Source of the DNA: Favolaschia claudopus
Taxonomy: Eukaryota > Basidiomycota > Agaricomycetes > Agaricales > Mycenaceae
Length of the DNA stretch: 64,000 nucleotides
NCBI GenBank assembly: GCA_037176885.1
Contig: JAWWNJ010000065.1
Location: 992,001-1,056,000, forward strand
Reading direction: 5' to 3'
Shown here: positions 7,801 through 48,700 of the stretch, piece by piece
Numbering within the stretch: position 1 is the stretch's first letter
Layout of the letters: each line of letters opens with the position of its first letter
Program-made: the position numbers and the translations under genes
The notes under the pieces: model-generated
Seen by the model: only the letters and a program-made list of their open reading frames with translations
Databases searched by the model: none
Told to the model about the DNA's origin: nothing

Positions 7801-8165
7801 TGATAGAGGCGATCGCTGCCGAGAGAGGCGGTCAGAATAACCTTCTCGGACGAAATGAGGTTGCGGATGAGCTTGCCACTGTCACCCTTCTCAAAGGTAA
7901 CACAGCGTCCACCGCCAAAGACGGTGTAACAGTCCGCCTGATCAAGCCGCGAAACTGATATAAGCGTCGGCTGGGAGTCAGGGACATAACAGGTATCTTT
8001 CAACCTGAGTCGGACGTTACCACCCTTAGGATGGGACGCTAGTAGCTGTGCTTCACCGCGACCCTCGATTTTCCTCGAACCGTTGCCGAACCCGCTGATA
8101 TTTTCGGATACGGCTTGGGCGTAAGAAACGAAGTCGCGTCGAACGGAGTGAATGTGTGTCGATGT
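4853..8165 (-). pseudogene. copia pol: integrase, reverse transcriptase, RNase H (frameshifted at the 3' end)
   Basis: About 1050 residues are open in one frame. In order they show a GAG-pre-integrase HHCC zinc site (HQRLGHLG ... CQSCMEGKM), an integrase core with D (SDLWT), D (HVDNGGEF) and E (PEQNGVAER), a Pro-rich linker, reverse transcriptase with SAFLNSE and AHVDDLGLF (the copia form of YVDD), and RNase H with SDSDWANS and GEAELYA. Near 5100-5155 the frame shifts, and the normal copia C-terminus (TKHVHIAI ... VADLFTKPL) continues in another frame down to 4853. The N-terminus is cut by the insertion at 8166. The protein would act in the retroelement's virus-like particle, but this copy is broken. 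Confidence 0.88.
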
Positions 8166-35665: not shown

Positions 35666-36098
35666 GTTACTCCGGCAGCGGATTTGGATCTGGATTTGAT
35701 GGGATTTGGTGGAACTGATGTCTGTATGTAACGTAGTCCGCGGAATGTCCGACATTAGCCGCCGTTGTGTTTGCAACATGCCTGCTCGTCGGCGACGACG
35801 ACGAGCTCCTTCATTGAGCCCATTGCTTGCCTCCAGAACGGCGCACTTTTTGAGAACGGTGTGCTTTGATTACTATATGTTGCCTGCCCAATTTTATTGC
35901 TATGGCAGACCTCTTAAGTGCCAGCGCAGGCGCGGCGGGAAATGGAGCGGGATGGCGGGAAAATGCCGACGAGACAATGCGCTGGCAGTTTGGCGGGAAC
36001 AGTCCCGTCATCAGTTGGCAACGGTGACTGATCGTCACCCATCAGCTCCAAATCCCATCAAATCCAAGTCCAAATCCAAATCCGCTGCCGGAGTGACT
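35666..36098. mobile_element. TIR element next to DIRS copy 2
   Basis: The left end (actccggcagcggatttgga from about 35669, running to about 35715) is the inverted complement of 36040-36095, with a length difference in a ggattt-type repeat. The interior has several ggcggga motifs. No clear target duplication, so the borders are approximate. Confidence 0.6.
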
Positions 36099-36106
36099 CT
36101 GACAGC

Positions 36107-37136
36107 TCACCCCTTGGGGAGGGAGGAAAATAGATGATATATTTATGATTGCGGTGAGGGGTGATGTGACCCTCGCAGCGAGCGCTCTCGGGCCGGAACC
36201 CAGGAAGACAAGGCAGCCCGAGGGAGGAGGGGTTGCCGGGACAGCGAGGAAGGTGAGCTGAGGCCGAGAGAGCAAGAAAAGGGGTGCGGCTAGAGGGCAT
36301 CGTCTCCGCGCCAAACCCATGCCGGGGCGACAACCATGGAGGTTGGTTGAATAAGTGGGGGTCGGAGAGAAGGCGTTTGCTCAACGCCACGATGATATCA
36401 GGTGACGTGTCAATGTACAGTTTGAAGCAACGGCCCAGGCGCTGAATGTCAAAGTCAGAGAGACCAATGCGTCGAGCCCAAGTGGCAGCGCCACGACGGA
36501 AACTATGGCCCGAATATCCTGACGATGAAATCTCGACATAAGTGAGACAGGCCTTCAAATAGTCGATGAAAAGCTTCCGCGAGAAAGCTCCATAGCCTGT
36601 ACCGTCGTGAGTACGCCGGCCCACAAACAGCGGGTCATCGGGCTTACCCGCCTCATTGAGGTGAGCTCGGAGAGGGGTGTAGGCACAGGTGGGCAAGCCA
36701 GTTTTTGCGATAGTGATGCGCACACCAGCACGGAAGGGGTCGGCTTTGGTGGCCGGGAGGTCAACGGAGAGATACTCGTCGTTCTGAATGATGATGTCAC
36801 GGCGCTTGAGGTTGAAAGCACCATCGAAAGAGTCGTAGGTGATCTCACCGCAGCGAAGAAAACCTGCGAAGGCCAGGGCGTAGGCAACTCGGAGAGTCTC
36901 GGCTAGCTCACGAGAAACACCCCGCGGAAGGGAGATAGGGTTGGAGAGGGAGGCAATAATCTGGGCTGGGACGGGCTGCGTAATAGGAAGTCGTTCCTTG
37001 CGTTCTGCATCCCCGTACACCCGGCGTATACCACGAATCACACGCTCGAGAACGCGTGATTCAAAGGGGCGGGATTCGTATCCAAGGTCAGTATGGAAGG
37101 ACTTGAGGGCACCAATCTAGCGCGTGATTGTTTTCG
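36107..37136 (-). pseudogene. DIRS tyrosine recombinase, copy 2
   Basis: The open frame holds the same domains as copy 1: FLRCGEITYDSFDG, HSFRRGAATWA and CFKLYID. In LGRCFKLY three residues that copy 1 has (WTSD region) are deleted, which shortens the stretch before the candidate nucleophile tyrosine. An in-frame break near 37120 separates it from the upstream overlapping region. Probably inactive. Confidence 0.75.
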
Positions 37137-37329
37137 CACTGCAGCCCGGGGGGAGGGATGCTGCCCATTCGAGAAGGTGGGGTTCTGAGGCGGGGTATGG
37201 AGAGGCACCGTCAGCACCGTATTTTCGCATGCAGAAAGACTCGAAGGAGTTGCAAGCCGTCTGGTTGATGCCGCGGGTGGAGGCAGCGAGGCCGTGCCAG
37301 AGGAAGTAGGCGACGAGCGGTGGTTGATC

Positions 37330-37920
37330 GACCCGTTCAGGCCATCCGGCGGGAGGTGGGGGAAGGGAGTGTGCTGTGAGGCGAAGAATTGAGTTAACAA
37401 TGGGCGAAGACGTGGCATGTCAAAACGAGAGAGTGCGTCAGCAAGGTAGTTCTGTTCAGAGGAAACCCACACGCAGGAGATGGAAAAGCCAAAAGATAGC
37501 GCAAGAAGGAAGATCTCCCTCAAGAGCGCCTGTGCAGGCACCTCCCAAATAGAACCCCCATTCAGACCAGCCACGCCGCCAGTGTTGCCAACTCGAAGTA
37601 AGACCCGAGACCCGGCCCAGGCTGGAGATGCCCAAACACGAAGAGCGTGGAGCACGGCCCACAGCTCCTTGAAAAGGATAGACTTTCCCCGGTGTCGCCT
37701 GGGTACTCGTGTCGCAAAAAAAGATCGATAGACCGCCAATTCCTTTCGAGGAAGACCCCCTGGCGTCAGTAAAGATAACCACGCCCGGGCGGTGATGATG
37801 TAGGGACTGGATACCGTTCCAAATCGGAACAAGACGAGACCACCATTCCAAATCACGGCGTGCACCTCTGGGGATGCAACGTCGGCCAAAGGATGGGAAG
37901 TGAGACAGCGCATCGTACAC
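37330..37920 (-). pseudogene. DIRS RNase H, copy 2 (frameshifted)
   Basis: One frame gives the N-terminal part with VVIFTDARGSSSKGIGG; after a shift, another gives RRHRGKSILFKELWAVLHAL, RVLLRVGNTGGVAGLN and YLADALSRFD. Together these are the parts of a DIRS RNase H domain. The frameshift lies near 37700. Confidence 0.75.
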
Positions 37921-38084
37921 GCGACGGATGAAAGCGCGCCTGTACTTGGATTCCCCACTTTGCTGCTGTTTTTCATGACTTTTCGCAAATCTAGTCTTGT
38001 CACGTCTAATGCTCTCGCCCGCGCGCTTGTCTGGGAAAGCCTCGAAAATCCTATACTTGAAAAGAGGGCCAGGCCATCAGTCGC

Positions 38085-38127
38085 GTGACTTTTGACAGAA
38101 AATCACGGGGTGTTTGATCTCGTTCCG
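38085..38127 (+). repeat. 43-bp direct repeat, left copy (right copy 44545-44588)
   Basis: gtgacttttgacagaaaatc and the following 23 bases recur at 44545-44588 with a single-base length difference. The two copies lie just outside the MULE-type element, and the right copy is part of the repeat-family gene at 44571. Confidence 0.85.
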
Positions 38128-38380
38128 GCACATTATTTTAGGAGGCTAAATTGCTTGTTTCTATGTCTAGATTGAATATACCTTCTTAGGATTCCTTCAT
38201 TTAACAACGCAGTTCCCCTGCAAGGCAAACATTCTGCTAGTGAGTAGTACTACTTGAAGACTTCAAGTTCTCGCATTCTAATACAACTTATTGCAATTCA
38301 TTCGATTCAAATACATATACTTGAACGAATACATTGAATTCGATTGAATGAACCACACAGCCATCCAACTAAGCTAAGCT

Positions 38381-41300
38381 TCAGTTTCCTCTGGAAGGCA
38401 CCCGGCAGCTCGTGCGATTGTGCCCAGGCTGGAGGCAGTTCGAGCAGTGAGTTTGTCGACGAACCTGACTTTGCGTCGGACCCTGGCTTCTAGGACCACC
38501 TCCGCGCGGCCTCCCTTCGGTAACACCAGTCAATCTCGCAGTGAGTGGTCTCCCCTTGCTCCGCTCAACAATCGGTGGATCGAATCTTCTCCCTCTGGGC
38601 TTCCTTCATCCTATTGAGAGGTAAATTAATCCTTATTGTTTGAAGTGTACCACACTTACCTTATGTTTGCAAGCTTCTCACGAACTTCGTCCAATTGCTC
38701 CTGAGTCTGAATATTCCCGAGCAGCGAACGAACTTCGGCTGTAAGTGAAGTATAGGCTTTGCGTTGGCCAATCGTACGCGACGTGGGTGGGGGTGTGCGA
38801 TTACTGTCGACAATAGTTCGGGATGAGACTGGGTTGGAAATGAGAGCGGTTGGAAGAGAGGTTGTGTCGAAGTGAATGACACGATTTGTGTGCTGGTTAT
38901 ATGTGACAACCGGTGTAGTTTTCACATTCAGGTTCGCCTCCTGCAACCATCTATAACAGCAGTTTATTAGCCAGTGGAGATATTTGGAATAGAGAGGAAA
39001 AAGACTCACCGATGTCGAATCAAGGACATATGGAGCGGCAAACCAGGTATACTGTGCCAGGCGATCAGATAATGCCAACACACGACACCCACATTGATTC
39101 CCATTGTACAGTCACAGAAATATCGACCGTCAGGTAAGGCTCCAACCGTTTCCGTTTAAAACAGTTTATAAACGGTTATAACCGTTTCCGTTTCCTTTTT
39201 ATTTGCTCGAGGGCTGGAACCTTTTATAAACTGTTTGTAAAAGGTTTAAAAGGTTGTTGGGAATTCAGTGGCTATGAGTGCACTCAGCAGCCAAAATGGA
39301 TGAGAATCTCACTTACCACAGCGTGTCTCAGAGTCTCCCGTCACATCGGTCTTCCATCCCACTGGATTCTCGGCGGTACCGGCTAGTTCCGGCCACTGAT
39401 CGTACGCGATGATGGGGAATCCCGATATGGTAAGCGAGTTTCGAGGTCAACACTAGTGCTGGCCATAAATATGATACGAGAAAATATATTTTGAATATAT
39501 TCAAATAAACATGAATACGATACGGCGCTCGACCTCTTCACTGAATACGAATACGGGTGAATACGAATATGCCAGAATATGGATACGAATACGATACAGC
39601 CGGGGCATATTCGAATATATTTGAATATGTTTGAATACCACTGCGGCGTGATTTGGCCCCTCGGCGGTGCCTCCCGGCCGAGATTTTCCGGGTGATACTG
39701 ATCATTGGGCTATATCAGCCCTGAAGACGACAATCAGCCCGGCAATATCTCCGAGGCATTCGGCATAGATCCGACCAGTGTCTTGGGCATCTCGGCCAAA
39801 CCTTCCATACCGGGATCCTTCGTCTCCGAGCCGTCCCAAGTTGAGATTTGACCTTGTATATGGTGCAGGTCATTCAGGACAGCAAATAGACGGAATATAA
39901 GTGATAATCAAGCATATTGAACACCTATTTGACTTGGTTGATGTGCCAGCTCTAGTAAGTTTTAGGTGAGTGAATATATTCAAATATATTCATAATATAT
40001 TCGTATTCAGCCCCTATGAATATGAATACGATACACTACAAATACGATACGCCGCTGGCGTATTCAAAATCTCAGAATATGCTTGAATATGAATACGATA
40101 CGGAAAATTCGTATCGTATCGTATTTATAGCCAGCACTAGTCAACACCTGAATTGCATGGACTATATGAGAAGGAAGCACCCAGGTGTGCACACAGAATC
40201 CTTCCTTTGCACCACAGGCTAAATTTTAAAAGTTTATCCCCGTTGTTTCGCGCTTTCTAGGTGGTTAGCAAAATTAACCTTTTAAAAACTGTTTTAAACT
40301 GTTTTAAACGGTTTTGTAACCGTTTCCGTTTGTTTTGCCCGGCCGAGCAAACGGAAACTAAAAGGTTGGAGCCTTACCGTCAGGGAGGAGGGCAATAATA
40401 TGAACTGCATTGGATTCGGTGTGTGTGATTTTCAAGAGATGTGAGGGAACCACCCCCTGTTGCCGAACGAGACGCAGAAGAAATCGTGAGCCGATATAAG
40501 CACGATCATTGCTGAAATCATTGAGTTGATTCTAGAATGACGGTTGGTGCGAGTTGTTGGTAGAGTAGAATAGAATTCAATCTAATCAACCTACCGCTTC
40601 TTCTCCTCCCTCCCAGCTATATCCAGGCTCCACCGTGTTCGATGCAAGCGCATATTCCGACTAGCAAATGTCCTATCATCAAAACGGATTATAAATTTGC
40701 AACAGACAGACTTACCCAATCGCGCACACCGTCGGGCTTGAGAAGTGCATCTGCCCTGTAAAAGCCAGAAAGCTCCATCTGCTTGTAGATCGTTTGTAGC
40801 GCAAACGGCCCTGCATGCTTTCTCATGAGGTCGAGAATGGGTTTAAACCGCGTGTCAGTTTGTGTGGGATGCTGTTTGCGCGATAACTGAGACAGAGAAT
40901 TAGCCATCGCTGCAAAAGACAAAGAGAAACGGACTCACAGCCCGAACGCGAATGAGATCATCGCGGGTTTGCTCCTCAGTGCGATCGTTCAGGGCCGAAA
41001 AGAGTTGGTAAAGAGATCTCTTCGGACCCGAGATGAGTTTGACCACCGCATTCTCCCCCTCGACACGATTATTGGTCCGAATTCCAGCCGTGAACACAAC
41101 ACTAATCCATGCCCAAGCCCAGTGGTCGCGAACGGAATACAGATCCTGGAGGTAGGATCTGGCTCTAGGATAGCGCTGTACCAGAGCGGTCCATTTCTCC
41201 TCGAAATCTTCGGGAGAGACAGCCCGGTAGCAGGCCCAAAAGTCCTGTTGGAAGTTGGGCCAATGCTCACCCAGCACTCGTCCGAGATTTTTGCCGACAT

Positions 41301-44265
41301 TGTCTTTAAGGTGCGAAAGACAGTAGACATGGAACGTGAAGACGAGAACATGGGACACAGCAGAGATGAGAGCTCCAGAGCGATCGGAGACGAAAACTTC
41401 AGGATGGACGGACCCTGAGACTTTGAGAGCACAGCTGAGGATCCACTCGTGCGTCTCCGTATCCTCGTATTTCTGCACAGCATACCAGCCGTTGCGAGAG
41501 TGCCGATGTAAATCGATAACGATACCTATCGAGAGGGGATACTGGCGATTGTTTTTGTTGTAACAGTTGTCGTTGATCAGGATGTCTGTATGTCGCAACG
41601 TCAACTGCGCCTGCTGAGGGGATTGCCAGAAGATCGCGATCACCACGCTGTGGGTGTCCAGTCTTATGAAGTACGTCCACCCGGGTTCTTTGCTATTGCG
41701 CTCTGCGAGTGAGGCGGTTATGGCAGCAAAGTCTCCTCCAAGCAGCTCTATCTCGTCGCGCGCCTCCTTCCGAGCCTTGGTGCGCATGTTCGAGATCTGG
41801 CGCGGTTCGAGACGATTCCCGGGAAACTGGACATCGAGCACTTGTCCCGTTTGGCGTCGCGAGAGTGAGTCGGGGAGTTTCGATGCTGCCGCACGCTGAG
41901 CAGCCGTTGGAGGACGCTGTGCTTGGCCGCCCTCGGGTATAGATGGGAGATGATTGTGAGCTGCATCGATGTGGGAAATCCGCCAGTACAGAGACGGTGG
42001 TTTGAGGGGCAGAAAGGCGACTCGAGCCTGGCAATTGGTGCGGCCTGACTTCCCTTTGCGATAGTCCCCAGGATCTATGTGCTCGCCATGCGTCTCAACC
42101 GCGTCACGATACCCATTGCAACGGAGTACGCGTCGGGTGAGATTACCGCTTTCGTCCTTATGGCTCTGCCCGAGAATAAATTTGTAGCCCAGCGCCTCCT
42201 GCGCAGTATAAACAGCAGTGATCCCTTCCTCCAAGGTCGGGTAAACGTTCCCTTCCTTGATCGGACCAAAGCTAAGGACAACCTGCCGAGTCTGGGGAGG
42301 AGGCGCGAGATTCGAGCCAAGGGGAAGCAAGCGGAGAGGAGGAGGAAAATCTTCTGTTTGGCGGGGCGGGGAGACGAGATCAATGGAACTCGGCTGCTCG
42401 CGCTTCACACCTGGGCGGAAGGGGCTGAAAAGGGTAGAGTTGGGTGGAGCGCGGACTGGTGTTCCCTCAGGAGTGCAGAGATCGATAACATCAGGGCTAC
42501 ACAGGTCGACCACTGCTTCCTGTTTGAGGCGGGGAGGCGGAGTCCTCGGCGAATCGAGAACAATGACCGACGCTGGCGATTCCGGAACAGGGGTACGACT
42601 TTTTGGGGGAGCGGCCACTCGCTCACTGATTTCGAATGGGAAGATCGTGTTGGGGGAGAGGGACATGCGAGCTAGCTGGTTGATCGGTGGAGGAGGAGTT
42701 CGAGTTCGAGCAGGTTTTTGGGTTAACGAAAATGGGGCAGCAAGGGAACGTTCGGGCTCAGACGCAAAAACATCTGTGTGAGGGCCAAGAACGGCCGGCT
42801 GCTGTGCGGTAGATTGAATCCAATCGAAGATAGGATGCTCCGACTAAGACAAGAGTGTAAGACATCCAAAAAAGGGATGAAAGTCTGGGTACATACGTTG
42901 GGCGCGAGTTGATCGAGGTTGAAATCATTATATCCGACAGCAACATCGGTAAACAGCGATACCTCGCCATTCGATATGCGAGTGCACGGCATCACCCAAT
43001 CAGAATAAGTCTAGAGATACAAGAGTCAGGTCTCGCACTGAGAATGAAAGAAAGAATACGTACTGTGGTTTTTCCGCGCGCAATAAGATGGTAAAGGAGG
43101 AGATCTTGAAGAATCAAGTCACGAAACAGAGACGATTGCTCAGCCTGCCAGCGAGGAATAGGTAGGCCCGCTCGAAGCTCGACAAAATTCGTTGCGGCGA
43201 TGCCACAGCTGCCTCCTCCACTGTACCCCTGCACATCCATAAGCCCAGACTGAATTGATTGCTGCTGGAGCGGAGGGGCGAAACGATTGAGCCCAGAAAA
43301 TGCCCAACGGAGAATGGGAAGGAGGTCCGGGGCATCGCGGCGATTGAGCGAGTCGCCGAACTCGTAGGGATTGGATAAGAATTTACAAGTCGCAGAGTAA
43401 TGATCGTTCGTCCATGACACAAAACCAATCGAGTCAAGCTGACCGCTGCGAATGCGCTCTCGGATGGCAATAATTTCAGGGCTATATATGGAGAGACAAT
43501 TTCGCGATGTAGATTGGCGCCATTGTCGATCCCTTCGAAGACCTTCCGGAGCTCGCGCGCATTTTCGACGAAGCTGGTGGGCAGAAAGATGAATGAAGGT
43601 TCGACGCCCGGGAACATAGCAGCTCGTCGGAAATAGATGAACTCGGCCCGAGCGTTCATAATATCGTCGAGGATCCAGCGCTCGTCGAGCAAGCAGCCTA
43701 GGTTGTAAAGAGGAGTCTGGGTGACACTAAAACCAGCAAGCGGTTCAGCGAAGCGATTGAGCTTCAACTCCTCAAAGAGAGCGGGGGAAAGAAGACTCTC
43801 TCGCTCAACGCGCGCCAGTAGCCTTGACATAAGACGAAAATTATAATCCTGGTTGTTAGCGCCGACGATAAGGCGTAGCTAAGTAATTATGAGCAAGATA
43901 TCATGATATTTGAATGCGAGACCAACCTTGGAAAAATGATAGCGTACAATCGCACCGCTTTTGAACTGGATACAGACAGAATTGACTCCCAGCTGGTAAA
44001 ATGCTTGCTTTGCATCGGCCATAATGGGCTGCATGTCGGCCATTGAGGGGATTTCCTCCCGCGAGGACACAATAGTCTCTGGAATGGTCACCGGAACGGT
44101 CTGGTCCCAATTCCACTTCGAAACACTGCCATCCGGGAGGATGCGCGGAAGGAGATCGTCTCGAACGAGACCAACGACCTCTCCCAGCGTTACATTGGCC
44201 ATGAACTGGGGAGAGAAACGGGTTTTGGGATGCGGAGCTGAGTAGGCTTCATACGACTCGGACAT
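38381..44265 (-). CDS. Ulp1/C48-like protease fused to a MULE (FAR1-type) transposase with SWIM and zinc knuckle
   Basis: Exons on the minus strand: 44265-43927, 43878-43064, 43010-42897, 42843-40939, 40886-40716, 40662-40595, 40531-39010 (split by the hAT at 39135-40376), 38950-38660, 38603-38381. Domains in order: C48-like protease (LLDERWILDDIMNA; His in TNDHYS at 43402, Asp in FGDSLN at 43354, Gln in DVQGYS at 43231, Cys in GGSCGIA at 43207); disordered linker with SIM-like and sumoylation-like motifs (42570-42370); FAR1-like zinc segment; MULE DDE core with D (LINDNCYN, 41571), D (VSDRSGALI, 41385) and E (RVEGEN, about 41060); SWIM finger CDC...CWH; knuckle CSNCLQPGHNRTSC. Damage: one base lost near 43481, and the hAT insertion. 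All other junctions keep phase. Total about 1400 residues. The transposase would cut and join DNA in the nucleus; the protease role is inferred. Confidence 0.75.
39135..40376. mobile_element. hAT element in the SWIM exon of the transposase gene (1242 bp)
   Basis: TIRs begin TAAGGCTCCAACCGTTT (left) with the complement at 40360-40376. A perfect 8-bp duplication ccgtcagg flanks it (39127-39134 and 40377-40384). Repeated aaacggtt / aaccgttt motifs fill the subterminal parts. The interior holds a second, younger hAT element. No transposase is encoded. Confidence 0.9.
39454..40139. mobile_element. hAT element nested inside the hAT at 39135 (686 bp)
   Basis: TIRs TAGTGCTGGCCATAAATA (left) and the complement at 40120-40139 are flanked by a perfect 8-bp duplication gtcaacac (39446-39453 and 40140-40147). 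The interior is dominated by gaatatattcaaatat and gaatacgatacg repeats. The terminal TAGTGCTGG matches the hAT MITE at 27975, suggesting a shared transposase source. Confidence 0.9.
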
Positions 44266-44570
44266 TGTGGGGAAGAGGGAAAAGAGAAAGGGGAGCCAAG
44301 CAGCACTTGTGCTTGTATATATGAAATTCTCAGTGCAAATTGCGCATGATTTCTTGGATTTGCAATAGCCCTCAAAGATCAAAGATGGAATTTGACGAGT
44401 TTATATATTTGAATCTTGGGCTTCGTACTTGAAGCTGCAGACAGAGCACATTTCAGTTGACTAGAGACAAGGTGTATAGCAATCTGTTATCATTGCAAGC
44501 AATAGCCAGATAGAGCAAGAAGAATGTGAAGCCAGCATCGCGACGTGACTTTTGACAGAAAATCACGGGG

Positions 44571-45326
44571 TTGTTTGATCTCGTTCCGACTCTTCCTTAT
44601 ATCAAGGAAATCACCGTCGCTTTTTTCCGTGGTGCTTTGACGACTTGGACACGGTTCTCATCCGAGTTCGCTCCAGGTGGTTTAATTGACCAATGTTCAG
44701 CGACGGAGAAGCAGCTGGCATGGATGCCGTCAACAAACGATGCTAACGAGGGTGCATTAGGAGCTTACCGGGGCGCCGTTCGAGGTAAACCACTTCTTAC
44801 GCTGCATCAGTACAACGCGTTGGCGATGTATCGGCGAAACGAGACACAAGATTTCATGGACGCGGTGTTCACGGCGGAAGACCACGCTTATATTATGCGG
44901 GAAGCTCGAAGGGTCGATGCGAGCGGCGAGGAAGCGAAGAAACGGGCTCAAATCGTCGATTTCCGTAAGCGGACAGCGGAGATGCAGAAGGCTAAAATCC
45001 TCGCAAAGGCCCGGAAAACTGCTCAGGATCTACAAGAGAACCTCTCTCGCAGGCTTGTCTCTCCATCCGAGATGCCAGGACTCACGATACCCCTCATTCA
45101 CGAGCAACTCAATGCGTATCGTGCTCGTGGAGTGCCAAATATGTTGTCTAACAGCAAGTATCCTCGTAAAGCTGAGAAGCTAGCGGCGCTGCAAGATGCA
45201 TATGGGTGGTATGTGGCTAATGGCCAATCTGTAGCACAGCCTGGGGTGCCAGCAAGTGTTGCGGAGGTTGCTCTTGTAGTTGCGGATGATGTACGGGTCG
45301 AGGACGATGTAGAGATGGAGGAATAA
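44571..45326 (+). pseudogene. 3' part of a multicopy basidiomycete gene, transposase-like
   Basis: The frame is open upstream of 44571 only as far as a stop at about 44553, so the 5' part is missing. The protein has GLFDLVPTLPYIKEI (from about 44565), FFRGALTTWTRFSSEF, WMPSTNDANEGALGAYR, LTLHQYNALAMYRRN, a long charged coiled-coil-like segment and an acidic end. I recall this as the C-terminal part of a repeated Agaricomycete family; the conserved Glu in NEGALG might be the last catalytic residue of an RNase H-fold transposase (inference). The MULE-type element lies immediately upstream and seems to have separated it from its 5' part. Confidence 0.5.
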
Positions 45327-45684: not shown

Positions 45685-45776
45685 GGCTTTGGGGATTTGA
45701 CAGGAAAGTGGGAAATCTGCAGGAGGCCTGCGTCATAGGTGGCTGTGTAGTGCCAAAAGAGGGAGTTCCCCTGACA
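45685..45776 (-). repeat. gypsy 3' LTR fragment
   Basis: On the minus strand it begins TGTCAGGGGAACTCCC directly after a G-rich polypurine tract (ccaagggggggatga). About 87 bp match 51297-51384 almost exactly. To the left the match is lost at the 155-bp TIR element. Confidence 0.8.
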
Positions 45777-48700
45777 TCATCCCCCCCTTGGAATGCGGCG
45801 CCTCGACGTATAGATCGCACCTGAGCTGGAGTTGACGAGCGGTCACGGAAGGGAAGGGAATCGAAGGCAGCAACAGCAATGGAGCGAGGTTTGGAAGGGT
45901 ATTTGCGGTAGAAAGCAGCGACAGCGTCCGGAAGACATTAGAGTGCTTCACCCATTGATCATGGGACGGGTCATAACCCTTCCAGCGAACAAAGTACCAT
46001 AGACTCCCATAGCGGATCTTGGCATCCAATATCTCCTCGACCTCCCATTGCTTGTCGCCAGGAACGTCAAGGATTGGTGGCGGCTCTTCGTGTCTGGGGC
46101 GAGTGGGGAATGGATCGGCTTCCACAAGCTGAAGTTTCACGACGGGGAAGACAGGGTGGAGGGCAGAGTACCGGTGCGGCAGCTCCAGTTTGAAGACACC
46201 ATTACCGACGACCTTCAGAACCTTGAAGGGGCCGATACGCCGGTGGGAGAATTTCACCGAAGGGCGGGTGGTGCGGATATCTGAAGCATCAACCCACACC
46301 CGGTCACCGACCTTGATGTCGGGAGCTGGCGTCCGCCGGCGGTCATAGTACTGCTTGTACTCTGCTTTGGCCTTGACAAGTGCTGCCTTCGCCTCGGAAA
46401 CCCCTGATGCAATCCGATCGTGGAACTCGTTCACAGCCTCCAACCTAGAGCGTGCAGCGTGGGGCTCAAAGCCCATCCGTGGAAGCCGACCAGTGTCCGT
46501 CATGAACGGTACCTGCTGCGTGGAGGAGTGCATGTGGTTGTTGTATGCAAACTCCGCTGCAGGTAGCAGCTCATCCCAGTCGTCCTGCTTGTAATTGGTG
46601 AAGAGCCGGACGTACTGCTCGAGTTCCTGGTTAACACGCTCCGTTTGGCCATCGGTCTGCGGGTGGTAGGCCGTAGAAGTGGCTGGGGTGACCCCAACGA
46701 GGCGCCAAAGCTCGCGCGTGAACTCTGCAATGAACTGGGTGCCACGATCCGAGATGTACTTCTCTGGCAGGCCATGGTGGCGCCAGACGTTCCGGTAGTA
46801 CAGCCGAGCAGCACCAACCGCGTCGATGGTGGTGTGCCACTCCATGAAGTGCGCTCTCTTCCCAAGGGCACAGACAATGACCATGACTGCATCGTGTCCA
46901 TGGGCATCGGGAAGCTCGACGATAAAGTCGACCGACACGGTGTGCCAGCGCTCTTCTGGGATCTCTGTGGGGTGGAGCTCACCAATCGGCAGTTGACGAA
47001 GCGCCTTGGTACGGCAGCACAAGTCACAAGTCGCGACATACCGACCGACATGGCGCGACAGCTGGGGCCACCAGTAGTTCCGAGACACGAGCTCCAGGGT
47101 CTTGAAACGACCGGCATGGCCTGCAACGCGCGTGTCATGGTGTTGCTCCAGGATGTGTCGGCGGAGGTCCTTGTCTCGGGGGACGACAATCTTCCCCCGG
47201 AAGTAAAGGAGTCCACCTTCAATACGCCATTCCGAAGACCGGGCAGACCGCACACCTCGGGCCTTGAGGAGTTCCTTCGCAGCCAGGGCAATGGGCTCTT
47301 CAAGGTCGGGGTCTCCAGCAAGCGCATCACGAATGTCGCGCAGGAGGGGAGCCTCAGGGCCAGCAATAACCAGGGCTTCGGTGGCCCGAACGTGGAACAG
47401 CTCAGATCGAAGCAGGGTAACGTCCTGGTTATCGTCCTGCACTCCATGGTCCGGTCTCCGAGAAAGCGCGTCAGGGCGACCCATGAGGCGACCCGGTTGG
47501 TGGTGCAGCGAGAAGTCGAAACGGGAGAGGTAGAGAGACCACCGAGCTTGGCGACGGTTGAGCTTCTGGGCCTTCCGGAAATATTCCAGGTTTTTGTGGT
47601 CCGTCCAGATCTCAACCGGGTGCTGCGCGCCCTCAAGGAAGTGGCGCCACTCCTCAAGGGCTCGCACGATTGCAAGCATCTCCTTGTCGTGAATCTCGTA
47701 ATTCCGCTGCACCTCGTTCAGGCTTTTGGAGTAGAACGCAACCGGATGCCACTTGCCATCGTCACCCTGCTGGGAGAGGACAGCACCGGTGGCATAGTCA
47801 GAGCTGTCCGCCTCGAGCCGGTACGGGCGTTCGGGGTTTGGGAGAACCAGAACGAGGTCCCGAGTCACCCGCCGCTTGAGCTCGTCAAAGGCAGCTTGCT
47901 CTTCAGGCCCCCAGGTCCAGGCAATGCCCTTCTTGGTGAGTCTGAAGAGGGCTTGAGCAACGTCTGAGAAGCCCGCAATGAACCGGCGGTAGAAGTTTGT
48001 GAAGCCAAGGAACTGCTGCACATCCTTCTTATTCTCAGGCGCTGGCCAAGCTGCCACTCCTGCAACCTTCACAGGGTCCATCTCGACGTGGTTGTGGGAG
48101 ATAATCACGCCGAGGTACTCAATGGAGGTCCGCTCAAACTCACACTTCTCGGCTCGAAGGTAAAGCTTGTTTGCGCGAAGCCTCCGCAGGACCTCTCGGA
48201 CGATCTCTCGATGCCGACGGATGTCTGAGTGGGCAATGAGGATATCGTCGAGGTAGACCATGACGTCGCCAGAGAGGATAAGATCCTGGAAGATGTCGTT
48301 CATCATGGTCTGGAAGGTTGCAGGGGAGTTGGTCAGACCGAAGTACATGACCAGCGGCTCAAACAGTCCCCGGTTGGTCCGGAACGCTGCCTTCCACTCG
48401 TCGCCTTCACGGATTCAAACGTTGTTAAAGCCCCATCGGACATCGAGCTTCGTGAAGTACCGGGCTCCCCTGAGTCGGTTGATGAGGTCGTTGATTAAGG
48501 GGAGCGGGTAACGATTCTTCACGGTCATAGCGTTTAAAGCTCGATAGTCCTGTACGAACTGAAGTCTGCCGTCCTTCTTCTTGACAAAGAAGACGGGTGA
48601 GGCCATAGGTGATTTTGACGGTCGAATCCGGCCAGTGCCAAGTCCCTCCTCGATGAAGGCATCAAGTTCCTTCTGTTCGAGAGGCGAGATTGGGTAGACC

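Follow-up and report, generated by a model that had tools for sequence, protein, structure and literature searches.

A 64,000-nucleotide stretch of the Favolaschia claudopus genome (GenBank assembly GCA_037176885.1, contig JAWWNJ010000065.1, positions 992,001 to 1,056,000 of the forward strand; hereafter the window) carries on its minus strand, at 38381-44265, a transposon gene in which a protease-like domain of the C48 (Ulp1/SENP) type precedes the transposase of a Mutator-like element (MULE). The question raised by this locus is whether the two halves form one protein, as an initial annotation of the window had proposed, and what a protease of this type, which may act on the modifier SUMO, could do within a transposase. 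The analyses described here indicate, from gene models and genomic copies, that the protease-transposase fusion is real. The element is probably a two-gene agaricomycete MULE with a single-protein C48-transposase, for which SUMO binding and SUMO removal are inferred, and the copy in the window is a relic of this two-gene Mutator-like transposon, with its first open reading frame (ORF1) recognized by motifs, Pfam matches and a splice model.

The window copy was described by a GT-AG model with exons at 44265-43927, 43878-43064, 43010-42897, 42843-40939, 40886-40716, 40660-40595, 40531-39010 (interrupted), 38950-38660 and 38610 onward. In this model exon 1 (43927-44265) holds the start of an N-terminal domain and exon 2 the protease; exon 3 (42897-43010), for which alignment and splice-site conservation also speak, is a conserved tail of the protease half, and exon 4 (40939-42843), a long open reading frame with Pfam matches, contains the linker, a FAR1-like domain and the MULE core. 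The two junction introns, 43063-43011 and 42896-42844, are both in phase 0, and the phase-matched splice sites by which the protease had been linked to the transposase were thereby recovered. Among 35 rows (the window and 34 loci with usable sequence, six of them re-fetches of the same places), the first junction intron retained GT in 34 and AG in 35, and the second retained GT in 26 and AG in 29. Furthermore, two F. claudopus copies carry the entire fusion in one open frame through the nine exons of the window model; their products are 1,407 and 1,412 amino acids long, with first stops at codons 1408 and 1413, past the zinc knuckle.

Homologous proteins, all of them conceptual gene models, were sought in searches that each scored the best 7,986-7,989 candidates by common words, so that absences and counts are bounds. 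The read-through window protein, with X at the breaks, retrieved 10 proteins, all from Mycena, including P0002 of M. venus (96% coverage of the window protein at 47% identity); a profile search returned seven proteins, four of them new, among them P0014 of Favolaschia claudopus; and the MULE region of P0003 retrieved 35 proteins, reaching beyond Mycena to Pleurotus pulmonarius, Tricholomella constricta, Panaeolus cyanescens, Leucocoprinus birnbaumii, Gymnopus androsaceus and Ramaria rubella. The His-Asp-Gln-Cys set was found in Mycena sanguinolenta P0018, Pleurotus P0020, Panaeolus P0032, Leucocoprinus P0036, Ramaria P0038 and Gymnopus P0039, and Pfam recognized MULE in each of these proteins, with the P0038 and P0039 matches falling below its cut-off; Tricholomella P0021 kept His, Asp and Gln, with the Cys stretch missing. 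Single gene models with both protease motifs and MULE thus exist in six genera, and these models, together with the two open-frame Favolaschia copies, bear out the earlier proposal that the protease is the N-terminal half of the transposase. Judged by these models, the catalytic residues of the protease are retained across Agaricomycetes. The N-terminal half was absent from 14 of the 39 proteins; 12 of these are predictions of 683-795 amino acids on contigs of 2.5-8.5 kb, for which loss of the first exon and genuine absence are equally likely.

The protease domain occupies 43064-43746 in exon 2, with one frame break, and was identified by HHalign, by the fold match of P0014 and by its catalytic columns. 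All of the protease motifs listed in the initial annotation were located: the WILDD segment at 43677-43663, the catalytic His at 43400-43402 and the catalytic Asp at 43352-43354, which align in HHalign with Ulp1 H514 and D531 and fall in conserved columns, and the oxyanion Gln at 43229-43231 and catalytic Cys at 43205-43207, which correspond to Ulp1 Q574 and C580 in the register of the printed HHalign alignment. The order His-Asp-Gln-Cys and the matching spacing of peptidase family C48 are present, and among 21 sequences His, Asp and Gln were conserved in 21 and Cys in 20. In 20 sequences His, Asp and Gln make up three of just seven invariant columns of the domain, which would occur by chance with a probability of about 2e-5, assuming 230 columns. 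HHalign aligned the domain with a C48 template at E 8.6e-5, and the structure model of P0014, the relative on which the proposed structural check was carried out, has a predicted papain-like fold of the Ulp1/SENP kind; its structure matches span residues 143-376, and its 23 best-ranking Foldseek rows all belong to SENP/Ulp SUMO proteases. Ahead of the protease, residues 1 to about 140 of P0014 form a mostly confident predicted alpha/beta domain with a weak stretch at 91-120. The protease domain shares about 10-16% sequence identity with known C48 proteases. Searches of Pfam, NCBIfam and PDB sequences did not reveal the protease, the window protein had no match to Pfam C48 at E up to 1, and a viral structure library gave no match at E up to 0.001; of the two profiles proposed for checking the gene, MULE was recovered (5.8e-10), and Peptidase_C48 had no Pfam match. 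The domain is under purifying selection among copies within the F. claudopus genome. These data support a predicted C48 (Ulp1/SENP-type) fold for the protease half.

The linker between protease and FAR1 is Pro/Ser-rich and poorly conserved, and it was compared with the general consensus of the SUMO-interacting motif (SIM). Short motifs are kept in it, in which V/I-I/V-D-L is followed by Ser/Thr-Pro, resembling a SIM, and a psi-K-x-E SUMO-acceptor consensus stands directly ahead of one of them. In the window these motifs comprise a hydrophobic run followed by D-S-P (42553-42570), a psi-K-x-E followed by two SIM-like cores (42466-42528) and a second psi-K-x-E followed by one such core (42367-42408). 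The module was defined at the motif level as psi-K-x-E with a SIM-like core following within 8 residues. In a first count, from which two of 15 rows had no linker, the pair was present in 13 of 13 linkers (the window and 12 proteins), with 0.00-0.01 in shuffles of each; a broader count with looser spacing, from which 10 of 40 rows were dropped because the anchor was missing, found the module in 20 of 30 linkers, including the window, with 0.24 expected. Gymnopus P0039, which stood outside the broader count, contains psi-K-x-E five times, in each case with a hydrophobic-D/H-L core after it. The SUMO-acceptor consensus adjoining a SIM-like motif in these linkers is, at the level of motifs, a new observation.

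The transposase half was recognized by a FAR1-like DNA-binding domain at 41950-42192 (Pfam E 0.013, below the cut-off in the window and above it in P0003 and P0036) and by the MULE transposase domain PF10551 at 41299-41577, above the cut-off. The D-D-C-x-x-H-E core of MULEs is present, as judged by Pfam and a motif table of relatives, with the catalytic Asp residues at 41569-41571 and 41383-41385 and the catalytic Glu at 41059-41061. This Glu is the first of two candidates and was chosen on the assumption that the rule T-N-x-x-x-E-x-x-N applies. A SWIM zinc finger (39072-39116) and a CCHC zinc knuckle (38405-38446, out of frame with the preceding exon) were identified by motif, and a ZSWIM1-3_RNaseH-like match (1.1e-4) fell below the Pfam cut-off. 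The FAR1-type MULE core, SWIM finger and knuckle named in the initial annotation are therefore all present, with the first of its two alternative Glu residues upheld.

To place the window copy in its family, the F. claudopus genome (264.6 Mb in 460 contigs) was searched; these searches score the best candidates, and the counts are lower bounds. PF10551 matched at least 44 places, and the window protease piece matched at least 86 places, or 76 loci once merged. At 20 of the 44 MULE places a protease locus lies upstream in the same orientation, 1.3-1.7 kb away in 19 cases and 3.3 kb away in one; two MULE places have a same-strand protease locus 7-7.6 kb away on the other side, and no opposite-strand pair within 8 kb was found among the 44 MULE places and 76 protease loci. 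Similarity to the full-length element covers window positions 38128-44543 (minus strand): copies on contigs C30 and C125 match this part at 92-98% and lack the insert that is nested in the window copy. The C30 element (550149-558479; 8,331 bp) has inverted ends of about 41 bp (92.7% identical) and a 9-bp duplication, CATTCTGAA, and the ends that enclose the C125 copy are 10.2 kb from each other. MULE target duplications range from 8 to 11 bp and are mostly 9 bp long. The genome contains 96 instances of the 22-bp end sequence with at most one mismatch, and 16 pairs of ends are separated by 750-796 bp, the spacing of short non-autonomous derivatives (e.g., C8:1489484-1490247 and C24:750440-751224). 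In 16 end pairs examined for duplication (13 short ones, C30, C52 and C125), 11 had a 9-bp duplication with 8 or 9 positions matching and five had none. A second gene (ORF2) follows the transposase gene in the same orientation (L047 829-1809, on C30); its product is similar to the C-terminal portions of P0002, P0010, P0011, P0013, P0014 and P0015 (M. venus and F. claudopus), with no Pfam match and no PDB match better than E 0.5. M. venus has seven gene models of the family, 56-100% identical over aligned stretches. By its ends and 9-bp duplication, which are those expected, the element is classed as a Mutator-like element, and the family is one with recent-looking insertions.

Several observations weigh against a single SUMO-directed C48-transposase. 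In the genome, 24 of the 44 MULE places are without a protease upstream, most of the 76 merged protease loci are without an adjacent MULE match, and the C125 copy is without a target duplication. The HHalign probability was 60% (81% in global mode) at about 12% identity to a single two-sequence template; Pfam C48 had no match in seven diverse relatives at E up to 10 and none in six others at E up to 1, where the HMMER filters discard most matches above E about 0.1. The P0014 model is weakest at the Gln (block 321-330, predicted local distance difference test (pLDDT) score 57; 328-330 below 50) and reaches a pLDDT of just 73-75 around the Cys, and the first structure model (P0004; 14 sequences) failed in the protease domain and was too poor for use. 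In Ulp1 the tryptophans W448 and W515 line the Gly-Gly tunnel; the column of W448 is Trp in 20 of 21 sequences, and the residue after the catalytic His, Trp in Ulp1 (W515), is Tyr in 15, Phe in 5 and Trp in 1 of the 21. The fold match to SENP8, a NEDD8 protease, equals that to the SUMO proteases. Because of this match and the Tyr or Phe after the His, SUMO is given here as the presumed substrate. In the linkers, 10 of the 30 scored are without the SUMO-acceptor/SIM module, both SIM and psi-K-x-E are short motifs, and kinship among the sequences makes the 20 of 30 less independent than the shuffles imply.

These points were weighed against other explanations. A captured Ulp1-like gene and a neighbouring MULE transposase gene might have been wrongly joined by prediction, as could be suspected from the 76 merged protease loci set beside 44 MULE places and from the second junction intron, which in the group at 67% identity has both ends kept in six of 10 rows and neither end in four. 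The loci L042 (C264) and L043 (C136) point the same way, being fragments of the protease half whose match to the element is confined to the protease and a portion of the linker, at 89-95% identity to the window copy and to full copies; they lie in clustered units that are 99.2% identical to each other, L042 contains an opposite-strand sequence that by eye we take to be copia-like gag, and the two are perhaps a retroelement carrying along a MULE fragment. The joining error is nevertheless very improbable, because the fusion is read in one open frame over nine exons in two copies, the junction splice sites are retained in most copies, diverged ones too, the spacing and strand of protease and MULE speak for one gene, and several genera conserve residues both before and after the junction; two separate genes were rejected, and one transcript is argued, on the open frame, the spacing and the conserved splice sites. 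A host gene domesticated from a MULE would also show the purifying selection and long open frames that were observed, but it is hardly conceivable given the many copies per genome in F. claudopus, the seven gene models in M. venus, and the terminal inverted repeats, 9-bp duplications and short non-autonomous derivatives.

The remaining alternatives accept the fusion and concern what its first half does. The low identity to known C48 proteases would suit a structural or binding module (e.g., a SUMO reader or a dimerisation domain) with no protease activity; this is improbable in view of the purifying selection and of the His, Asp and Gln among the seven invariant columns. The C48 fold might instead be kept with NEDD8 or ubiquitin in place of SUMO as its substrate, and here the SENP8 match and the Tyr or Phe after the His have to be set against the SIM-like and psi-K-x-E motifs within the same protein and the SENP/Ulp SUMO proteases that fill the best 23 Foldseek rows, which leave such a change of substrate unlikely. 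A fused C48-transposase directed at SUMO is accordingly preferred.

When compared with known systems, the fungal protease shares its fold and catalytic His-Asp-Gln-Cys order with yeast Ulp1 and human SENP1, SENP2 and SENP8, but it differs from them in its low identity, in having Tyr or Phe where they have Trp after the His, and in being fused to a transposase. The SUMO-targeted ubiquitin ligase RNF4 has tandem SIMs of the I/V-V/I-D-L type, like those in the fungal linker; however, RNF4 is a ligase rather than a protease and has no transposase. Ulp1-bearing Mutator elements are described from hydra, lancelet, Arabidopsis, maize, rice and melon in PMC2836005, where a figure legend aligns the Ulp1 domains of Mutator transposases; a Mutator-encoded Ulp1/C48 domain is thus common to both. 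Those elements are non-fungal; the fungal domain, for its part, goes undetected by Pfam, lies at the N-terminus and precedes a SUMO-acceptor/SIM-like linker. Ginger1 likewise has Ulp1 (or OTU) fused to a DDE transposase, but as described in that source the transposase is Gypsy-integrase-like, the protease is C-terminal and the hosts are animals (PMC2836005). By domain content (FAR1-like, MULE D-D-E core with C-x-x-H, SWIM and CCHC) the fungal transposase resembles the Hop-type MULEs, group 35, with FAR1, SWIM and CCHC in plants, oomycetes, Basidiomycota and Ascomycota (PMC6446971); one Hop-type sub-group has target duplications of 9-10 bp, compared with 9 bp here, and that survey, which covers 1,631 MULEs, mentions neither Ulp1 nor protease nor SUMO in its main text, in contrast to the N-terminal C48-like domain of the fungal element (PMC6446971). 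In the Kaonashi (KIU)/Vandal elements of Arabidopsis a conserved Ulp1 domain is also carried by a MULE and is tied to escape from silencing, but it resides in a VANC-type gene, one of three, separate from the transposase; the precise function of Ulp1 domains in MULEs is stated to be unknown in the corresponding section of this 2026 review (PMC13317346). CACTA elements of grapevine and rice with Ulp1, for which rice proteins with Tnp2 transposase and ULP1 are mentioned in PMC2528002, are similar in this pairing and differ in superfamily and in belonging to plants. KDZ/Zisupton elements were considered as a source of Ulp1 and rejected, since, in a listing of papers that name at least two of Zisupton, KDZ, Kyakuja and Ulp1, Ulp1 was never among the terms counted. 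No fungal case of an Ulp1-MULE fusion was found in the open-access literature, subscription literature being mostly outside the search. The architecture, of which the initial annotation knew no description in fungi, seems new for fungi rather than altogether new, as Ulp1 in plant and animal Mutator elements is in print (PMC2836005).

In the window itself the gene is not intact, contrary to what had been proposed: it has two frame breaks and a nested insert in the SWIM exon. The first break, at about 43482-43497, places the WILDD segment and the His-Asp-Gln-Cys segment in different frames, unlike in copies L040 and L041, where exon 2 runs in a single frame. An intron across this break was rejected, as the sole short GT-AG pair would span 16 nt; a longer pair drawn by hand, 43542-43457, was rejected as well because it would delete a segment conserved in the family. 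The second break, near 38575, separates the CCHC knuckle from the frame of the preceding exon. Exon 7, of which 40377-40531 lies ahead of the insert, is split by a non-autonomous element of 1,242 bp at 39135-40376 (minus strand; 8-bp duplication CCTGACGG; 13-bp perfect inverted ends), which is absent from L040 and L041 and which itself contains a second element at 39454-40139 (minus strand; 8-bp duplication GTGTTGAC; inverted ends matching at 23 of 25 positions). From the length of their duplications, both are presumably hAT-like. The window copy is 97.97% identical to L040 over 4,192 columns and 92.4% over a further 1,024.

Compared with the full-length element, the window copy lacks both true termini and ORF2, and no canonical ends with 8-11 bp duplications were found around it. 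The gene is flanked by direct repeats of 44-45 bp (38084-38127 and 44544-44588). The genome holds 604 occurrences of a 21-bp part of them, some in same-strand pairs about 210-410 bp apart, and full copies of the element run past both points; the repeats were therefore rejected as a target duplication or as element ends and seem to belong to another dispersed repeat. Given the 604 sites, another repeat may have relocated or framed the window copy. On the minus strand at 36058-38102, open reading frames that by eye resemble the RNase H and tyrosine recombinase of a DIRS-like retroelement, with a weak RVT_3 match only, end at the repeat at 38084. On the plus strand, a 256-amino-acid open reading frame (44556-45326) starts inside the other flanking repeat, after a splice-acceptor-like sequence. 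An 893-amino-acid open reading frame at 45733-48414 (minus strand) has, by appearance, a Gypsy-type polymerase and integrase.

The transposase of the complete element would consist of an N-terminal domain, a C48 protease, a linker with SUMO-acceptor and SIM-like motifs, a FAR1-like domain, the MULE D-D-E core, a SWIM finger and a CCHC knuckle. Its linker would bind SUMO, and the transposase may itself be sumoylated there; the motifs of the linker fit a putative function in removing SUMO from the protein itself or from chromatin. The protease half could strip SUMO from the transposase in cis, or in trans from host proteins coated with SUMO where the element leaves or inserts. The transposase might thereby escape ubiquitination that depends on SUMO, and the loss that goes with it; alternatively, complexes for SUMO-dependent silencing or repair might be loosened. 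Either outcome would favour transposition. Tentatively, and with somewhat less than an even chance of being right, we propose that the protein is a self-contained SUMO switch in which an attachment site, SUMO-binding motifs and a SUMO-removing enzyme adjoin the DNA-cutting core, and which sets its own SUMO state or strips silencing or repair complexes.

In both heterochromatin and DNA repair, SUMO serves as a main signal, and unrelated transposons recurrently carry Ulp1 domains. A C48-like domain can escape Pfam in fungi, and annotations that name only MULE or SWIM can hide a protease half. With one protein, open-frame copies, recognisable ends, short derivatives, and catalytic residues that lend themselves to single mutations, this family offers a tractable case in which the reason why transposons carry SUMO proteases becomes directly testable.

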